A DNA stretch of 44,682 bases from NCBI RefSeq assembly GCF_014859525.1, contig NZ_JACUUB010000017.1, positions 1 through 44,682 of the forward strand, given 5' to 3'. The notes under the pieces were generated by a model. That model was not told the origin of the DNA, searched no databases, and was given only the letters and a program-made list of their open reading frames with translations. Origin of the DNA: Marinobacter sp. (GTDB taxonomy: Bacteria; Pseudomonadota; Gammaproteobacteria; Pseudomonadales; Oleiphilaceae). Shown here one piece after another: positions 24,515 through 33,006 of this stretch. Both the position numbers and the translations under genes were made by a program. How positions within the stretch are numbered: the stretch's first letter is position 1; every line of letters begins with the position of its first letter.

Positions 24515-25414
24515 ATGGCTCAGATGCATAACCAGCTATCACCCTCCGAGGGCATTTGGGCGCTGCGCCGACTCCCTGAGATGGATGAGGCGCAGTTCAA
24601 TCAGTGGCAGACGTTGCTGGAGCATCGCACCGGTATCTCGTTGACTGCTGAGCGCCGCTCCTTTCTGGAAACCAATCTTGGAATCCGGATGCGGGAAATC
24701 GGCTGCAACAGCTACCAGGCCTACTACGAGAAAATCGTCAATGGCCCGGATGCAGTCAGAGAATGGGCAACGTTGGTGGACCGGCTGACGGTTCAGGAAA
24801 CCCGTTTTTTCCGGGATCCGGATGCCTTCCGCCTGGTAGCAGACTATGTGCTGACACGGCCCAGGGAACAGTTCAGAAAACGGGCATTGGAAGCCTGGAG
24901 TGTTGGCTGCTCAACGGGAGAAGAACCGTACACGTTGGCCATGACCCTGAACGAATGCATGGGTCAGCTGGCGTTGCAGCCTTTGTTTGGCGTGACCGGC
25001 TCAGACATCAGCCTGCCGGCCATCGAGAAAGCACGCCAGGGCCAATTCAATGCCCGCAAATTGCTGGGCATGGACGAAGACATGAAAACCCGGTACTTCC
25101 GTCCGGCTGAACGGAACACCGTAGAAATCGTGAATAGCGTCCGTGATCGCGTTTGCTTTACCAGGCTCAATGTACTGGATCTGGATAAGGCACCGATGCA
25201 CGGCATGAACATTATCTTCTGCCAGAACCTGCTGATCTACTTTCGCCGCTGGCGTCGGCGGGAAATTGTCAAACGGCTCGCAGAGCGTCTGGCACCGGGG
25301 GGCTTACTGGTGCTTGGCCAGGGTGAACTGACCGACTGGCAGCCACCGGGCCTGCAGAGGGTTCCCTCGGAACATGTGCTGGCGTGGATAAAACGTCAGT
25401 CCGACGAAGAATAA
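24515..25414 (+). CDS. pilK: Chemotaxis methyltransferase PilK (CheR family)
   Basis: SAM-dependent glutamate methyltransferase expected to modify PilJ; it acts against the methylesterase ChpB. 299 residues. The CheR N-terminal helical domain reaches about 95 (RLTVQETRFFRDPDAF at the junction). The SAM-binding WSVGCSTGEEPYTLAM lies at about 128-143 and the catalytic-domain motif FCQNLLIYF at about 237-245. No pentapeptide-binding extension is visible. The ribosome site is weak. It is followed by chpA after 11 nt. Confidence 0.93.
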   Translation: MAQMHNQLSPSEGIWALRRLPEMDEAQFNQWQTLLEHRTGISLTAERRSFLETNLGIRMREIGCNSYQAYYEKIVNGPDAVREWATLVDRLTVQETRFFRDPDAFRLVADYVLTRPREQFRKRALEAWSVGCSTGEEPYTLAMTLNECMGQLALQPLFGVTGSDISLPAIEKARQGQFNARKLLGMDEDMKTRYFRPAERNTVEIVNSVRDRVCFTRLNVLDLDKAPMHGMNIIFCQNLLIYFRRWRRREIVKRLAERLAPGGLLVLGQGELTDWQPPGLQRVPSEHVLAWIKRQSDEE

Positions 25415-25425
25415 CCGGAGTGGTT

Positions 25426-28400
25426 ATGGGCAATCACCATGACAGTATCGCCCTCGACTGGGTTCGGGGCGAAATACAGGACACGCTGACCCAAGGCCAG
25501 CATGCACTGGAAGCGTTCGTTGATAATCGTGACGATACCGCACGCCTGCGTTTTTGCCTGAACTACCTCCACCAGGTACATGGCACCCTGCAGATGGTGG
25601 AGCTCTACGGTGCGGCACTGCTCACTGAAGAGATGGAAAAACTGACCCAGGCCATCCTCAACGAGACCGTGGTCAGCGTTGATGATGCGGTCGAAGTGCT
25701 GATGCAAGCCATCCTGCAACTGCCCCAATACCTGGAACATCTGGGCAGCAGCCGCGATGATTTCCCGATGGTGCTGCTACCGTTGCTGAACGACCTGCGC
25801 GCTGCCCGGGGCGAAGCTCTGCTGTCAGACACCTCCCTGTTCAAACCGGATCTCACGCCCTCACAGCTCGCCGTGGGCGACAAGGGCTCCGAGCGCCTGC
25901 ACGATCCCAAAGTTCTGGGTCACCTCCGCAAATTACGGCAAATGTATCAGTTTGCCCTGGCGGGCGTGGTCCGAGAGGCAGACCTGGCCGCCCATTTTGA
26001 CTACATGCAAAAGGTCATTCAGCGCCTTATCCGACTGTGCCATAAGACACCTCGCGGTGAACTCTGGAAGGCAGCCAGTGGCTTTGTCGAAACCCTTCAG
26101 GCCAACGTCAATCCGGTCAATACTGCGGTTAAATCGTTACTTCGCGAGTTGGATGCTGAAATCCGCCGGCTGACCGACGAGCACGCCGACATTCTGCAAC
26201 AGCCGGTGCCAGAAGCGCTCTTCAAACATCTACTTTACTACGTTGCTCGAGCCCGCGACTTAAACAGCCCGCAGGTAAAGGCGCTTCGTGATGCTTACCA
26301 GCTAAACAACGCCCTGCCCTCGGAAGACGACGTCAACGCGGCCCGCAGCCGCGTCTCCGGCCCAGGCCGTGATGCCATCCACTCGGTGGTCAGCGCATTG
26401 AATGAAGAGCTGGCCAGGCTGAAAGATCAGCTCGATCTGTTTGTGCGCGCAGAGCTCCGCCAGAACAGTGAGCTGGAAGACTTGCTGCCGGGCCTGCACC
26501 AGGTTGCCAACACATTGGCCGTTATTGGTCTCGGCATCCCCCGCAAAGTTGTTACCGAACAAGCCGAATTGGTTGAACGACTCTGCGGTCAGGTTGAACC
26601 CGCAGACGACGGAACCCTGATGGATATTGCCGGCGCACTGCTCTATGTTGAAGCCAGTCTTGCTGGCCTGGACAGCGATCATCGCAACGACATCGAGTCC
26701 GGATCCCAAAACGGAGACCAACCGAATATCGGCTCCATGGAACTTGGCGACGCCAGCGCGGCTCTGTTAAGGGAGTCCCGCAACACGCTGGAACAGGTAA
26801 AGTCTGCGATCGTCAACTTCATCGCGTCTCAATGGGATACCCGTGAGATCGATCACGTACCCGGACTCCTGCACAGCATCCAGGGCGGACTGAGCCTGGT
26901 TCCTCTTGATCGGGTCGCCGACATGCTCGCCTCTGCCGAGCGTTACGTGTCTGATGTGTTGCTGAGCAACAAGCAGGTTCCGGACTGGAAGCAACTGGAT
27001 ACCTTGGCCGATGCCGTCACCAGCATCGAGTACTACCTTGAGCGTCTGGCTGAAGGCATCAGCGATAACGAGTCCATTCTGAAAGTGGCTGAAGACAGCC
27101 TGGCCAGCCTTGGTTTCCCGATAGGTGAAGAACCCACCTGGAACCTGCAACAACCCGAGCCAGAGGCCGGGGTCGAAACGGCAATGGCGTCGGCTGCACA
27201 AACTGACTCGGGCGATGCCAACAAAGCCTCCGATGACGAATTGTTGGACGACGAGATTCTCGGCATCTTTGTTGAAGAAGCCGAAGAAGTCCTGCAGACC
27301 ATCCATGAGTTTTATCCTCGCCTGCATCAAAATCATGAAGACCGCGAAGCCCTGACCGAAGTCCGTCGGGCCTTTCACACCCTCAAGGGCAGTGGACGAA
27401 TGGTCGGTGCAGTCAGCCTTGGTGAACTGGCCTGGTCGGTCGAAAATCTGCTGAACCGACTGCTTGATCAGACCATTAAGCCGACAGAAGATCTGTTTGC
27501 GCTGGTAGACGAAGCGAACAACCGTATCCCGTCCTTGATCAATGAGTTCCGTAGCGGTCAACGCAGTGGTGACGTGGCAGAGCTGATTGCACGGGCCGAG
27601 GGTCTGGCAACCACACGAAGAGCAGACACAGATGCCACGGTATCGGATGATCCGGTCGAGGCAACTGAAAACGCCAATGCCGGCGAAGAAGAACCCAGGT
27701 TCGAGCCCGGGCTCCCTGCAGAATCCGAACAAGCCTCGGAACCTACAGACAATGATCTGATCGACGACGAGATCCTGGAAATCTTCATTGAAGAAGCCGG
27801 CGAAGTTCTCGACACTATCCGTGAATACCTGCCGATGCTGTTGCGCCAGCATGACGATCGTAGCGCCCTCGCCGAAGTGCGCCGCGCCTTCCATACCCTC
27901 AAGGGCAGTGGACGAATGGTCGGCGCAGACGTCATCGGTGAACTGGCCTGGTCGGTCGAGAATGTTCTCAATCGGGTTATTGACGGCAGTGTCTTCATGA
28001 ACGATGACATTGCCCAGTTGTTGCAAGACGTGACCGGCTCTGTTCCCGCTCTGGTTAGCGATTTTGAACATCGGCGCCCGGCAAGTCTGGACATTGCACC
28101 GATGGAATCCCGGGCAAAAGCTCTGGCCAATGGTGAAATTCCGGACGCCACCAGCATGCCTCCCGCCGAGACTAGCCTGGCCGACGTCGAAACGCCTGAA
28201 CCGAGTGATGACACTGTCGACCTGCACGTCGACAGTGTTGATCAGGATCAGGACGTTGACCCGGTGCTGCTGGAGATCTTTGAAAACGAGACCGAAACGC
28301 ACCTTCAGACCATCAAGGAATATCTGTCTGCGGCCGGTGATAAAACGACAGTCGCCTATACCGACGATCTGTCCCGCGCCCTGCATACTCTCAAAGGCAG

Positions 28401-31400
28401 CGCACACACCGCAGGTATCGGTCCCATCGCAGAAGTGATCACTCCGCTCGAACGCTTTGTCAAAGAATCGAGAGCACAGAACAAACGGGCGGATCACGAC
28501 GTTCTGGCGTTGCTTGAGCAAGCCAGTAATTACCTGAGCCAGGGTCTGGCACAGCTCAAAAGCAATCCCCAGGGATCGCTGGAAGGTACCGACGATTATC
28601 TGGCACGGCTGGAAAACATTAGCCAACAAACACTGTTGTCGCACGGCCAGCACAATGAGGACCAGCCATCCGCTCAGGCACCATCGCAGCTGGTCCAGTT
28701 GTTCCTTGGCGAAGGGCTCGACATCGTCCTGGACGCCGAGTCGATTCTTGACGAATGGGCCCAACACCCGGAGCGCACCGAGTCCCTCGGTACCTTGCGA
28801 GCCGAGCTTGAGCACCTGACACAAGGTGCCGCCGGCACCGGACTATTGGATCTTGCGGACCTTGCAGCGGCCCTGACTCGCACCTACACCGCGGTCGACG
28901 AGCATAACCTGACACCGGATGACGACTTCTTCAACACCGTTCATGCGGCCCAGGAACAACTGATCAATCTGATGGATCAGGTTGCCGCCGGCTTGGCCAC
29001 CGAACCCAGCGATGTTCTGATCGAAGAACTGGATGCGCTGACAGATGCTGCCGCAGCAGCCCATCAGGCAAGCCAGGGGCCGAACGAGTTCGAACAACAG
29101 TTCCCTGGCGATCTGGAAGAAATCGATCTGACCCTTGAACTGGACGACGCGGAAGAAGCCGAAACCGGCACCACTGAGCCGGAACAACCGCCTCTGCCGG
29201 AGCTGTCTTCAGAAGACAGTGACTTTGATGACGAGCTTGCCGAAATCTTCCTCGAAGAAGCCCGTGACCTGATCAACAGCTCTGCAGAGGCTCTGCAAAA
29301 CTGGAGTGAAGAAACCGGCAACTTCGATATTCTGCGACTGCTTCAGCGCGACCTGCATACACTCAAAGGTGGTGCACGGTTGGCCGATATTCCAGCAGTC
29401 GGCGACCTCTCCCACGAACTTGAGAATCTGTTTGAGGGGCTGACGGAACTAAAGCTTTCAATCAACGACACACTCTCTGACCTGCTGTTCCGGTGTCACG
29501 ATCGCCTGGCCGGCATGGTTGATGCTCTGGAAACCAAGGAACAGCCCAGGCCAGCACCCGATCTGATTGCCGAGATTCACAGCTACATCGACGGCGCCAA
29601 AGGCTCCCGTCCGGTGACCAATGTAAGTGATGCTGACACTGAATTGCCAGAGGATGACCTGGGGTTACCAGAACTCGATGTGGAGGAAGCCTCCACCGAT
29701 GAGCCCGCTACCGAAGACCTGATGGCGACAGATTTGTCCCATCTCGATCCGGAGCTGATCGGCATCTTCCTGGAAGAAGCTTACGACCTGATCAATTCGA
29801 CCGGCAGCGCGCTCCATGCCTGGAGCGAAAATCCGACTGATCGTGATGTTGCCGCGGTTCTCCAGCGCGAGGTCCATACCCTCAAAGGCGGCGCCCGAAT
29901 GGCAGGTGTCGATGCCATCGGCGATTTAACCCACGTTCTGGAAGATTTGTTCGAGAAAGTGGCCGATGGCCAGCTTGGCGCCAGTGGCGAGATGATCGAT
30001 CTGTTGTTTGCCTGCCATGACCGTCTGGCTCAGATGGTCGAACAGGTAGCCACTCAGAAACCTTGCCCCTCCGCCAATGAACTGGTCCAGGAGGTGGAGG
30101 CCATCCTCCGCGGCGAGACACCATCACCGAGCAGTGAACTGCCAATCGCTGACGTGGAAGAGCCGTCCGCCGAACCAGAGCCGAGCTTTGATACCTCGGC
30201 TGAGTTTGACGCTGAGCCGGCCGAGGCCTCGAAACCGGAGGTCGATGACGATCTGATCGGCATCTTCCTGGACGAAGGTCTGGAGATCCACGAAGCCATT
30301 ACCGAATGCCTGAACCAGTGGCGTGAAGAGCCGGATGAACTGGCAGGTATCACGCGGCTCCAGCAAGAATTGCACACGCTCAAGGGTGGTGCCCGGCTGT
30401 CGGATGTCGATCCGATCGCGGATCTTGCCGAAGCCTGGGCTGACGCTCTGGACCGGCTGGTGTCCAGCGGCAGCGGCCAACAAGGGCTGTTGGCGCTGAG
30501 CGACCAGGCTCTTGCCAGCCTCAAAGCGATGCTCGACAGCATCGAACAAGGCCTGAAACCTGCGCCAGATGCTGGCATGGTTGCCGAGCTCCAACGTGCC
30601 GACGAGCTGGAGGAGGACGTTCACAGCGCCGAGACCAACCAGACCGACGCAGACGCCGTGGACCCGGAAGTTCTCGAGATCTTCCTGGAAGAAGCCGGCG
30701 AGCTGATGGATCAACTGGAACAACTGCTGGACGACTGGCGCAAAGAACCAGCCAATCATCACTTCAACCAGGAAGCGCAACGGGCATTGCACACCCTCAA
30801 AGGGGGTGCTCGCCTATCCCAGATCAGCGATCTGGGCGACAAAGCTCACGCCTTTGAAACCCGATTGATTGATCTTGGCGGTAACGCACCTGATGACACC
30901 CAGTGGCAAGCCATCACCGGTGATCACGACGCCATCATTGCCCTGGTCAAGGAGATCCGAAACCGCTTCGAGTCCGGCGCCTCCATGACTGTCACGCCGG
31001 ACCAAAAGCCTGAGCCCGAGATCCAGCCGGAACAGCCAGCCGCCCAAGCTCAACAGCCGGAAGTAAAAGCGCCCGAGCCCATGCTGGCCGTCCCGCCGGC
31101 ACCGGAAGCACCAAGGCCGGACAAGGCGTTAGCCAAGGTTCGCAGTAAGGCCGCCGAGGCTCAGCGAGCAGCCCAGGAAACCATCCGGGTATCCGCACCG
31201 CTGCTCGACGAGCTGGTCAACCTCGCCGGCGAGACCAGTATCACCCGGGGTCGTCTGGAACAGCAAAGCAGTGACTTCAGTCATACCCTGGATGAAATGG
31301 CCGCGACCATCGAGCGTCTGCGGGAGCAGCTGCGCCGGATGGATATCGAGACCGAGGCCCAGATTCTGTTCCGGGCAGAGCAGGAGCATGGCCCGGATTA

Positions 31401-33006
31401 CGGTGATGATTTCGACCCACTGGAAATGGACCGCTACTCTTCCATCCAGCAGCTGTCGCGCGCCTTGTCAGAGTCGTCCTCTGACCTTGCCGACTTGCGG
31501 GAAACCCTGGCCGACCGGATACGAGATACCGAAACCCTGCTGGTACAACAGTCCCGGATCAACACGGAACTTCAGGAGGGTCTGATGAAGACCCGAATGA
31601 TTCCGTTTGCCTCGATGGTGCCGAGACTGCGCCGTATCGTTCGCCAGATCAGTGGCGAGCTGGGCAAGAAGGTCGAATTTGATGTCCGCAACGCCGAAGG
31701 CGAAATGGATCGCAACATTCTGGAGCGCATGATTGCGCCCCTTGAGCACATGCTGCGGAACGCCCTGGACCATGGCATCGAAACACCGGAAGAGCGCAAG
31801 CAGGCAGGCAAGCCAGTCACCGGTGAAGTCGTACTGTCACTGACCCGCGAAGGCGGTGATGTGGTTCTGCGAATGATTGACGACGGCAAGGGTATTCCAG
31901 CGAACGTGATTCGGGACAAGGCCATTCGCCAGGGCCTGATGCGCCAGGATGAAGATCTGTCAGAACGGGAAATTCTGCAGTTTATTCTTCAGCCAGGATT
32001 CTCCACTGCTCAGCAAGTCACCCAGATCTCCGGTCGTGGTGTAGGCATGGACGTCGTGGGTAGCGAAATCAAGCAGCTTGGCGGCAGCCTCGATATTGAT
32101 TCCGCCCCCGGACGTGGGACCACCTTCACCGTGCGCTTGCCGTTTACCGTTTCGGTCAACCGGGCACTGATGGTTTCTACTGGCGAAGACTTTTACGCCA
32201 TCCCGCTCAACACCATTGAAGGTATCGTGCGGGTCAGCACCTACGAGCTGGAAGAATATTACAAGCCGGATGCACCACTCTACGAATACGCAGGTCAGCA
32301 CTACCGCTTGCAGTATCTTGGCAGCCTGTTGAACAGCGACCATCATCCCAAGCTGCAGGGGCAGGCTCTGCCACTGCCGGTTATTCTGGTGCGCGGCGCG
32401 GAACAACCCATGGCACTGCAGGTAGACCAGCTGATGGGTAGCCGTGAGATCGTCGTTAAATCTCTCGGACCTCAGTTCAGTACTGTCCGGGGTGTGTCCG
32501 GGGCGACTATTCTGGGCGACGGTAACGTGGTTGTGATTCTCGACCTGCCGGCGATGATTCGCTCTGACATTCTGTCTGAACGCCAGCGCCTGGCGAACAT
32601 CGAGAAAGCACAAGAAGCCAGCCGCTACGAAGAGAAAGTCACCACTGTCATGGTGGTGGATGACTCGGTCACCGTGCGCAAGGTTACCTCCCGTTTGCTG
32701 GAACGGAATGGAATGGAAGTCATTACCGCAAAAGACGGTCTGGATGCGGTTGCACAGCTTCAGGATCATCGCCCGGACATCATCCTGCTGGATATCGAAA
32801 TGCCTCGCATGGATGGTTTCGAGGTGGCCAGCTTTGTCCGCCACGATGACAACCTGAAAGACACGCCAATTTGCATGATTACCTCGCGTACCGGTGAGAA
32901 ACACCGCGAGCGGGCCCTGTCGATTGGTGTTAATGAGTATCTGGGTAAACCCTTCCAGGAAACCGAATTGCTTGAGACCATCAAGCGGCTGACCGGGAAT
33001 CAGTGA
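25426..33006 (+). CDS. chpA: Giant hybrid chemosensory kinase ChpA
   Basis: CheA-like histidine kinase of the Pil-Chp system, 2526 residues from the ATG at 25426 (CGGAG 7 nt upstream). Seven canonical phosphotransfer motifs HTLKG place histidines at 651, 823, 987, 1311, 1484, 1650 and 1789. Degenerate, Hpt-like repeats keep a histidine but lose the lysine at 49 (HQVHG), 358, 483 (HSIQG) and 1130 (HLTQG). Acidic linkers separate the domains. Then come a dimerization region, the ATPase domain (N-box RNALDHG at about 2111-2117, DDGKG at 2152-2156, GRGVGMD at 2203-2209), a CheW-like domain (about 2245-2380) and a receiver with phosphoacceptor Asp2456. All catalytic boxes are intact. The Hpt domains at 651 and 823 are a recent-looking duplication. 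Confidence 0.96.
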   Translation: MGNHHDSIALDWVRGEIQDTLTQGQHALEAFVDNRDDTARLRFCLNYLHQVHGTLQMVELYGAALLTEEMEKLTQAILNETVVSVDDAVEVLMQAILQLPQYLEHLGSSRDDFPMVLLPLLNDLRAARGEALLSDTSLFKPDLTPSQLAVGDKGSERLHDPKVLGHLRKLRQMYQFALAGVVREADLAAHFDYMQKVIQRLIRLCHKTPRGELWKAASGFVETLQANVNPVNTAVKSLLRELDAEIRRLTDEHADILQQPVPEALFKHLLYYVARARDLNSPQVKALRDAYQLNNALPSEDDVNAARSRVSGPGRDAIHSVVSALNEELARLKDQLDLFVRAELRQNSELEDLLPGLHQVANTLAVIGLGIPRKVVTEQAELVERLCGQVEPADDGTLMDIAGALLYVEASLAGLDSDHRNDIESGSQNGDQPNIGSMELGDASAALLRESRNTLEQVKSAIVNFIASQWDTREIDHVPGLLHSIQGGLSLVPLDRVADMLASAERYVSDVLLSNKQVPDWKQLDTLADAVTSIEYYLERLAEGISDNESILKVAEDSLASLGFPIGEEPTWNLQQPEPEAGVETAMASAAQTDSGDANKASDDELLDDEILGIFVEEAEEVLQTIHEFYPRLHQNHEDREALTEVRRAFHTLKGSGRMVGAVSLGELAWSVENLLNRLLDQTIKPTEDLFALVDEANNRIPSLINEFRSGQRSGDVAELIARAEGLATTRRADTDATVSDDPVEATENANAGEEEPRFEPGLPAESEQASEPTDNDLIDDEILEIFIEEAGEVLDTIREYLPMLLRQHDDRSALAEVRRAFHTLKGSGRMVGADVIGELAWSVENVLNRVIDGSVFMNDDIAQLLQDVTGSVPALVSDFEHRRPASLDIAPMESRAKALANGEIPDATSMPPAETSLADVETPEPSDDTVDLHVDSVDQDQDVDPVLLEIFENETETHLQTIKEYLSAAGDKTTVAYTDDLSRALHTLKGSAHTAGIGPIAEVITPLERFVKESRAQNKRADHDVLALLEQASNYLSQGLAQLKSNPQGSLEGTDDYLARLENISQQTLLSHGQHNEDQPSAQAPSQLVQLFLGEGLDIVLDAESILDEWAQHPERTESLGTLRAELEHLTQGAAGTGLLDLADLAAALTRTYTAVDEHNLTPDDDFFNTVHAAQEQLINLMDQVAAGLATEPSDVLIEELDALTDAAAAAHQASQGPNEFEQQFPGDLEEIDLTLELDDAEEAETGTTEPEQPPLPELSSEDSDFDDELAEIFLEEARDLINSSAEALQNWSEETGNFDILRLLQRDLHTLKGGARLADIPAVGDLSHELENLFEGLTELKLSINDTLSDLLFRCHDRLAGMVDALETKEQPRPAPDLIAEIHSYIDGAKGSRPVTNVSDADTELPEDDLGLPELDVEEASTDEPATEDLMATDLSHLDPELIGIFLEEAYDLINSTGSALHAWSENPTDRDVAAVLQREVHTLKGGARMAGVDAIGDLTHVLEDLFEKVADGQLGASGEMIDLLFACHDRLAQMVEQVATQKPCPSANELVQEVEAILRGETPSPSSELPIADVEEPSAEPEPSFDTSAEFDAEPAEASKPEVDDDLIGIFLDEGLEIHEAITECLNQWREEPDELAGITRLQQELHTLKGGARLSDVDPIADLAEAWADALDRLVSSGSGQQGLLALSDQALASLKAMLDSIEQGLKPAPDAGMVAELQRADELEEDVHSAETNQTDADAVDPEVLEIFLEEAGELMDQLEQLLDDWRKEPANHHFNQEAQRALHTLKGGARLSQISDLGDKAHAFETRLIDLGGNAPDDTQWQAITGDHDAIIALVKEIRNRFESGASMTVTPDQKPEPEIQPEQPAAQAQQPEVKAPEPMLAVPPAPEAPRPDKALAKVRSKAAEAQRAAQETIRVSAPLLDELVNLAGETSITRGRLEQQSSDFSHTLDEMAATIERLREQLRRMDIETEAQILFRAEQEHGPDYGDDFDPLEMDRYSSIQQLSRALSESSSDLADLRETLADRIRDTETLLVQQSRINTELQEGLMKTRMIPFASMVPRLRRIVRQISGELGKKVEFDVRNAEGEMDRNILERMIAPLEHMLRNALDHGIETPEERKQAGKPVTGEVVLSLTREGGDVVLRMIDDGKGIPANVIRDKAIRQGLMRQDEDLSEREILQFILQPGFSTAQQVTQISGRGVGMDVVGSEIKQLGGSLDIDSAPGRGTTFTVRLPFTVSVNRALMVSTGEDFYAIPLNTIEGIVRVSTYELEEYYKPDAPLYEYAGQHYRLQYLGSLLNSDHHPKLQGQALPLPVILVRGAEQPMALQVDQLMGSREIVVKSLGPQFSTVRGVSGATILGDGNVVVILDLPAMIRSDILSERQRLANIEKAQEASRYEEKVTTVMVVDDSVTVRKVTSRLLERNGMEVITAKDGLDAVAQLQDHRPDIILLDIEMPRMDGFEVASFVRHDDNLKDTPICMITSRTGEKHRERALSIGVNEYLGKPFQETELLETIKRLTGNQ
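27372..27963 (+). repeat. Internal duplication in chpA, 516-bp period
   Basis: The DNA around the Hpt motifs at 27376 and 27892 contains two identical blocks: 27379-27407 equals 27895-27923 (29 nt) and 27421-27443 equals 27937-27959 (23 nt). Both pairs are offset by 516 bp, or 172 codons. Flanking acidic segments (DDEI-hydrophobic-IEEA/VEEA) are also alike. Confidence 0.8.

Follow-up and report, generated by a model that had tools for sequence, protein, structure and literature searches.

A local tract of DNA identity between two old Hpt modules of ChpA in Marinobacter

ChpA of the Pseudomonas aeruginosa Pil-Chp system belongs to the Tfp-class CheA kinases with multiple Hpt modules. As described in two papers (PMC10542144, PMC12632253), it is encoded in a pil-chp cluster and combines many N-terminal Hpt modules with a kinase core, a CheW domain and a C-terminal receiver. 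A third (PMC5812489) describes PilG and PilH as receiving phosphate mainly from Hpt2 and Hpt3, and it reports phosphate exchange of Hpt2-6 with the receiver. Multiplication of Hpt domains in this CheA class is already known, with duplicated domains numbering up to fourteen in Oleiphilus messinensis (Berry et al., PMC10542144), and the reason for the many relay modules in ChpA-like kinases is described as poorly understood (PMC12632253).

The chpA locus and its two HTLKGSGR modules

The ChpA analysed here is encoded in a stretch of 44,682 nucleotides from Marinobacter sp. (contig NZ_JACUUB010000017.1), the whole of which is referred to as the window. Its nine Pfam Hpt stretches, dimerisation, ATPase and CheW domains and C-terminal receiver agree with the composition of a Tfp-class CheA, and it lies in a pil-chp cluster containing genes for PilG/PilH-type receivers, PilI/ChpC-type CheW proteins, PilJ, CheR and CheB (Table 1). 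The cluster was assigned at the level of domains, and the individual gene names follow from order and homology. Full-length ChpA ORFs of the genus (n = 90) have seven motif-bearing Hpt modules in 76 cases, five in 2, six in 5 and eight in 7. An extra HTLKGGARMA[E/D]I module is present in the M4/M5 interval of some genomes and absent from most.

The two HTLKGSGR modules, M1 and M2, usually have the motifs HTLKGSGRLVGA and HTLKGSGRMVGA, respectively. By homology, they would act as relay modules in a pilus chemosensory kinase, and the pair may give it an extra phosphodonor module. In contrast to the window, the Pseudomonas and Stutzerimonas loci among the best 80 named loci listed contain one HTLKGSGR module.

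Table 1. Coordinates of chpA, its paired modules and neighbouring genes in the window.
Feature	Position	Strand	Remark
Receiver genes, pil-chp cluster	20920 and 21387		
CheW genes, pil-chp cluster	21770 and 34064		
PilJ-domain receptor gene	22433		
CheR gene	24515		
chpA	25384..33006	+	GTG start at 25384, 2540 codons; hybrid CheA-type kinase
Hpt module M1	27253..27522	+	First HTLKGSGR module
Phospho-His codon of M1	27376..27378	+	CAC
29-nt identity block, M1 copy	27379..27407	+	Codons +1 to +10
M1 codon +8	27400..27402	+	ATG, M2-type residue; Leu in 97/112 genomes
23-nt identity block, M1 copy	27421..27443	+	Codons +15 to +22
Hpt module M2	27769..27993	+	Second HTLKGSGR module; Pfam model match
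Phospho-His codon of M2	27892..27894	+	CAT
29-nt identity block, M2 copy	27895..27923	+	
23-nt identity block, M2 copy	27937..27959	+	
Hpt module M3	28267..28527	+	HTLKGSAHTA, next after M2; not homogenised with M1/M2
CheB gene	33003		

An earlier note on this DNA had reported exact repeats of 29 and 23 nt at an offset of 516, and both runs were found in chpA, where they are the two longest among the exact repeats of at least 15 nt listed for the 7623-bp gene. The histidines that it numbered His651 and His823 fit a start at ATG 25426 and become His665 and His837 when counted from GTG 25384. The 29-nt run starts immediately after the phospho-His codon, which is CAC in M1 and CAT in M2. Sequence matches to solved structures include CheA P1 domains, in which the 29-nt block aligns directly after the phospho-His. 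The third-ranked repeat listed is an exact one of 20 nt in two later Hpt modules (29755-29774 and 30253-30272, offset 498).

Distribution and age of the module pair

The genus sample comprised 124 genomes, of which 112 formed the main set of M1-M2 pairs. Outside this set were G004, which has a single chimeric module, four genomes (G026, G062, G081 and G096) with an M1 motif, HTFKGSG, that was missed by the search pattern, and G150, of which a short locus was taken. The last five were added in a repeat of the analysis with 117 genomes, and the results were little changed. Three genomes were excluded as broken or too near an end (G058, G070 and G162) and three for want of a usable pair (G033, G045 and G077), two of these last three assemblies being less than 85% complete. 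Smaller subsets underlie the M1-M2 core identity (90 of the first 100 genomes), the independent-pairs test (111) and the own-minus-cross comparison (78). From 39 genomes of the family outside the genus, 37 loci were taken and 36 used, G135 having been dropped for a broken frame; G105 and G115 gave weak matches only and fall outside the 37 loci.

When the two-module stretch was used as query, matches were found in 99/100 genus genomes and in 121/121 genomes of the family sample, a few of them weak or partial. Besides the 112 genus genomes, 36 genomes of the family, belonging to 14 other genera, had usable M1 and M2 pairs. When a tree was built from 138 modules, sorting them into five groups by position cost 6 label changes compared with 84 after shuffling, and modules thus grouped by position rather than by genome. 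The DNA identity of M1 and M2 over the ungapped core was 0.692 in the window, the mean for 90 genomes being 0.685. The pair is therefore neither confined to close relatives nor alike over its full length. A tandem duplication that arose recently in this lineage, as the earlier note proposed, would account for the identity of the blocks, and the block-level identity alone speaks for it. Because of the wide distribution of the pair, the positional grouping and the average core identity, recent duplication is excluded, and we regard its probability as negligible. These results indicate that M1 and M2 are an old tandem duplication that predates the split of most genera in the family.

The earlier note had also held that its proposal would fail if distant genera had orthologues with both modules diverged and with no identity blocks. 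Such divergence was largely observed outside the genus, where the median longest M1-M2 run is 14 nt (36 genomes, 14 genera), but three genomes of genus g15 of the family carry longer runs: G130, G113 and G137 (loci L150, L153 and L149) have M1-M2 runs of 41, 36 and 32 nt, respectively, at overall identities of 0.66 to 0.72.

For other families of the order, 25 loci were read, taken with about 1.5 kb on either side from the best 30 matches in 140 order-level genomes. These loci contain one HTLKGSGR module, which is followed by an HT[L/V]KGSA module in 24/25. Among the best 80 named loci listed, two HTLKGSGR modules were found in 7/8 loci of Moraxellaceae (L269, L271-L274, L292 and L294) and in 4/4 of Competibacter type (L278, L288, L301 and L324). 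Sequence identities do not decide whether these pairs and M1/M2 have a common origin. To date the duplication relative to other families, five AU tests were made, each with a different set of modules held together as a clade (M1+M2, M1, M2, M2+X or M1+X, where X denotes the one module found in other families), and they gave p values from 0.48 to 0.77.

Identity of the blocks compared with chance and constraint

Third codon positions in the blocks could be held by a constraint other than that on ChpA, for example by an antisense gene that overlaps them or by a DNA or RNA signal. An antisense ORF of 685 aa (26767-28824, minus strand) indeed spans the module region. However, its frame is open across the M1-M2 pair in only 23/112 genomes, so that it is probably not a gene, and orthologues use between 2 and 10 different codons at the block positions, except for Trp and for Met at +8 of M2. 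On these grounds the antisense gene was rejected, and we consider any constraint of this kind highly improbable.

In 5000 synonymous-codon shuffles of chpA, a run of at least 29 nt appeared in 0.10% and a two-run sum of at least 52 in 0/5000, and M1 and M2 use identical codons at 17/23 shared residues compared with a shuffled mean of 8.4. As a stricter null, M1 of one genome was compared with M2 of another, an arrangement in which mutual conversion is impossible while residues and codon preference are kept. Runs of at least 29 nt were present in 4/112 comparisons within genomes and in 111/12432 between genomes, and sums of at least 52 in 3/112 (the window, G047 and G076) and 13/12432, respectively. 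With 117 genomes, the corresponding frequencies were 4/117 versus 120/13572 for runs and 3/117 versus 13/13572 for sums. The between-genome comparison thus indicates that the identity is due in part to residue conservation and codon preference, with an excess left over. The claim that third positions are kept beyond what selection on the protein would explain was right in kind, but runs of this length occur in about 0.9% of comparisons in which the two modules could not have converted each other.

The same comparison bears on an explanation with no conversion at all, in which residue conservation and shared codon preference produced the blocks by chance and the window is simply an extreme case among more than 100 genomes. 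The 111 long runs between genomes are what it would lead one to expect, and the block codons CTC, AAG, GGC and AGT are common in both modules across the genus. Against it, two-run sums of at least 52 are about 26-fold less frequent in comparisons between genomes than in those within a genome.

A log-odds tract score for codons +1 to +9 of the window gave p = 0.0030 with M1 as acceptor and p = 0.0027 with M2 as acceptor (0.0023 and 0.0013, respectively, in GC3-matched sets), values of about 0.003 that make the signal of the window moderate and do not survive correction for more than 100 genomes. When M1 of the window was scored with M2 of other genomes, its own score was beaten in 1/111 cases (rank p = 0.018). 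Scores with p < 0.01 were obtained in 5/112 genomes for transfer from M2 to M1 and in 9/112 for transfer from M1 to M2, where about one is expected, and in 7 and 9 of 117 genomes in the repeat; because the genomes are related, these counts are not independent.

Averaged over 78 genomes, the own-minus-cross excess of shared codons was +0.024 for M1-M2. Non-adjacent modules showed an excess as well (M3-M5, +0.045; M3-M7, +0.044), indicating that such averages are inflated by genome habits or relatedness. Homogenisation of the whole Hpt array was rejected, as the differences were small, uneven and not special to M1-M2. The small genus-wide mean, which is no property of M1-M2 in particular, also fits the explanation without conversion.

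Direction of sharing and a chimeric module

The nearest relatives of the window share about 78% DNA identity with it, too distant for placement on a short branch, and five of them were used as reference. Relative to these, M1 of the window has 20 derived codons between -44 and +43. Derived codons matched the window's own M2 in 4/5 cases in codons 0 to 20 and in 3/15 outside (Fisher p = 0.03, range set by the script), and in 6/7 cases in +3 to +23 compared with 1/13 elsewhere, the latter range having been picked post hoc. In each of the five relatives, AAG at +3 and ATG at +8 are the state of M2, and their presence in M1 of the window points to transfer from M2 to M1. The opposite direction is indicated by CGA at +7, which is the derived state in M2. 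For GCA at +11 and AAT at +23, the codon is derived in M1 as well as in M2. These two doubly derived codons, and the M2-type AAG and ATG of M1, all lie inside the tract and speak against an explanation without conversion. M1 and M2 are not alike at codons +12 to +14, which lie between the blocks, and at least two tracts or a later repair are therefore needed. Identity between M1 and M2 is raised over some 65-75 bp surrounding the active-site helix, on a core that is average as a whole. The earlier note's alternative, gene conversion or homogenisation, is thus favoured for this short region and does not extend to the module as a unit.

Across the genus, derived codons of M1 matched the genome's own M2 more often than the M2 of others by a factor of 1.30 in codons -4 to 12 (68/210) and 1.32 in codons 12 to 28 (40/220), compared with 0.92 to 1.02 in other stretches. 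When M2 was taken as acceptor, the excess was weak: the ratios lay between 0.72 and 1.23 with no clear peak, and those within -4 to 28 were 1.06 and 1.23.

Codon +8 of M1 was chosen as a trait after the sequences had been seen; it encodes Met in 15/112 genomes and Leu in 97. Synonymous codons near +8 were shared with the genome's own M2 at a frequency of 0.642 in Met genomes (n = 15) versus 0.445 in Leu genomes (n = 97), while sharing in a control stretch was 0.569 versus 0.528. The repeat with 117 genomes (15 Met, 102 Leu) gave 0.642 versus 0.458. The Met/Leu state changed 8 times on the tree, and the means of Met lineages exceeded those of their nearest Leu relatives in 7/8 (Wilcoxon p = 0.016). 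An independent-pairs test on 111 genomes showed the same lean but was not significant (median p = 0.25 and 0.125).

A product of recombination between the two modules was found in a related genome. G004 (locus L101, a single-contig assembly) has one module where four similar genomes of the genus (G026, G062, G081 and G096) have two, and query residues 658-819, approximately one repeat unit, are missing from the matches to its chpA. Its codons are M1-like up to -1 and M2-like from +1, with few exceptions, which places the junction at the His codon. We read G004 as an in-frame deletion by exchange within the same block. The chimera shows that M1 and M2 do recombine at this spot and that the block is a real pairing site, at which conversion is plausible. 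Recombination at the very position of the shared tract is a further point against the explanation without conversion, to which we still give some weight but which we consider unlikely. Psychrobacter urativorans (L275) was considered as a second chimera and rejected, its first module reading HVLKGAGRT; unlike it, the other Psychrobacter loci read retain HTLKGSGRM.

Our preferred reading, to which we assign a probability of roughly two in three, is an old M1/M2 pair with local, sporadic homogenisation around the phospho-His helix. Strong constraint on the residues of the helix that carries the phospho-acceptor (RRAFHTLKGSGR.VGA..GELAWSVEN) would keep the DNA of M1 and M2 alike there and so allow them to pair about 0.5 kb apart. 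A tract of tens of bases would then occasionally be copied between the modules, in the window mostly from M2 to M1 and at about codons +1 to +11 and +15 to +23, probably through replication-template switching or small-heteroduplex recombination. If the same pairing were resolved by exchange, a whole module unit would be lost in frame, as in G004. The long runs in the three g15 genomes are possibly independent cases of the same homogenisation.

A more far-reaching reading is that repeated M2-to-M1 copying of about 30-75 bp makes the phospho-acceptor helices of the two modules evolve together and is kept by selection, M1 and M2 having to dock the same receivers. We think this rather doubtful. 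If true, it would amount to concerted evolution of a signalling interface below the level of the domain, with the rest of each module remaining distinct and occasional module loss, as in G004, arising as a by-product.

Sporadic homogenisation of an old pair would share with gene conversion and concerted evolution of duplicates, as described in titles and abstract openings, a patchy identity of paralogues on an older background, and would differ in acting inside one gene, between domains and over tracts of tens of bases. Compared with the Hpt multiplication described in CheA, it would be an exchange between two old modules; conversion is not discussed in the accessible portion of that study (PMC10542144), and no paper on conversion between Hpt modules was found among titles and abstract openings of the open-licence literature.

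If no exchange took place, the case warns that conserved motifs can mimic recent duplication. If the active-site helix is exchanged between neighbouring modules, likeness of the helix would not be evidence of recent birth, and module trees built from it would be unreliable. The G004 chimera would then be a natural one-module variant bearing on the need for both modules, and it suggests that M1 and M2 are redundant.
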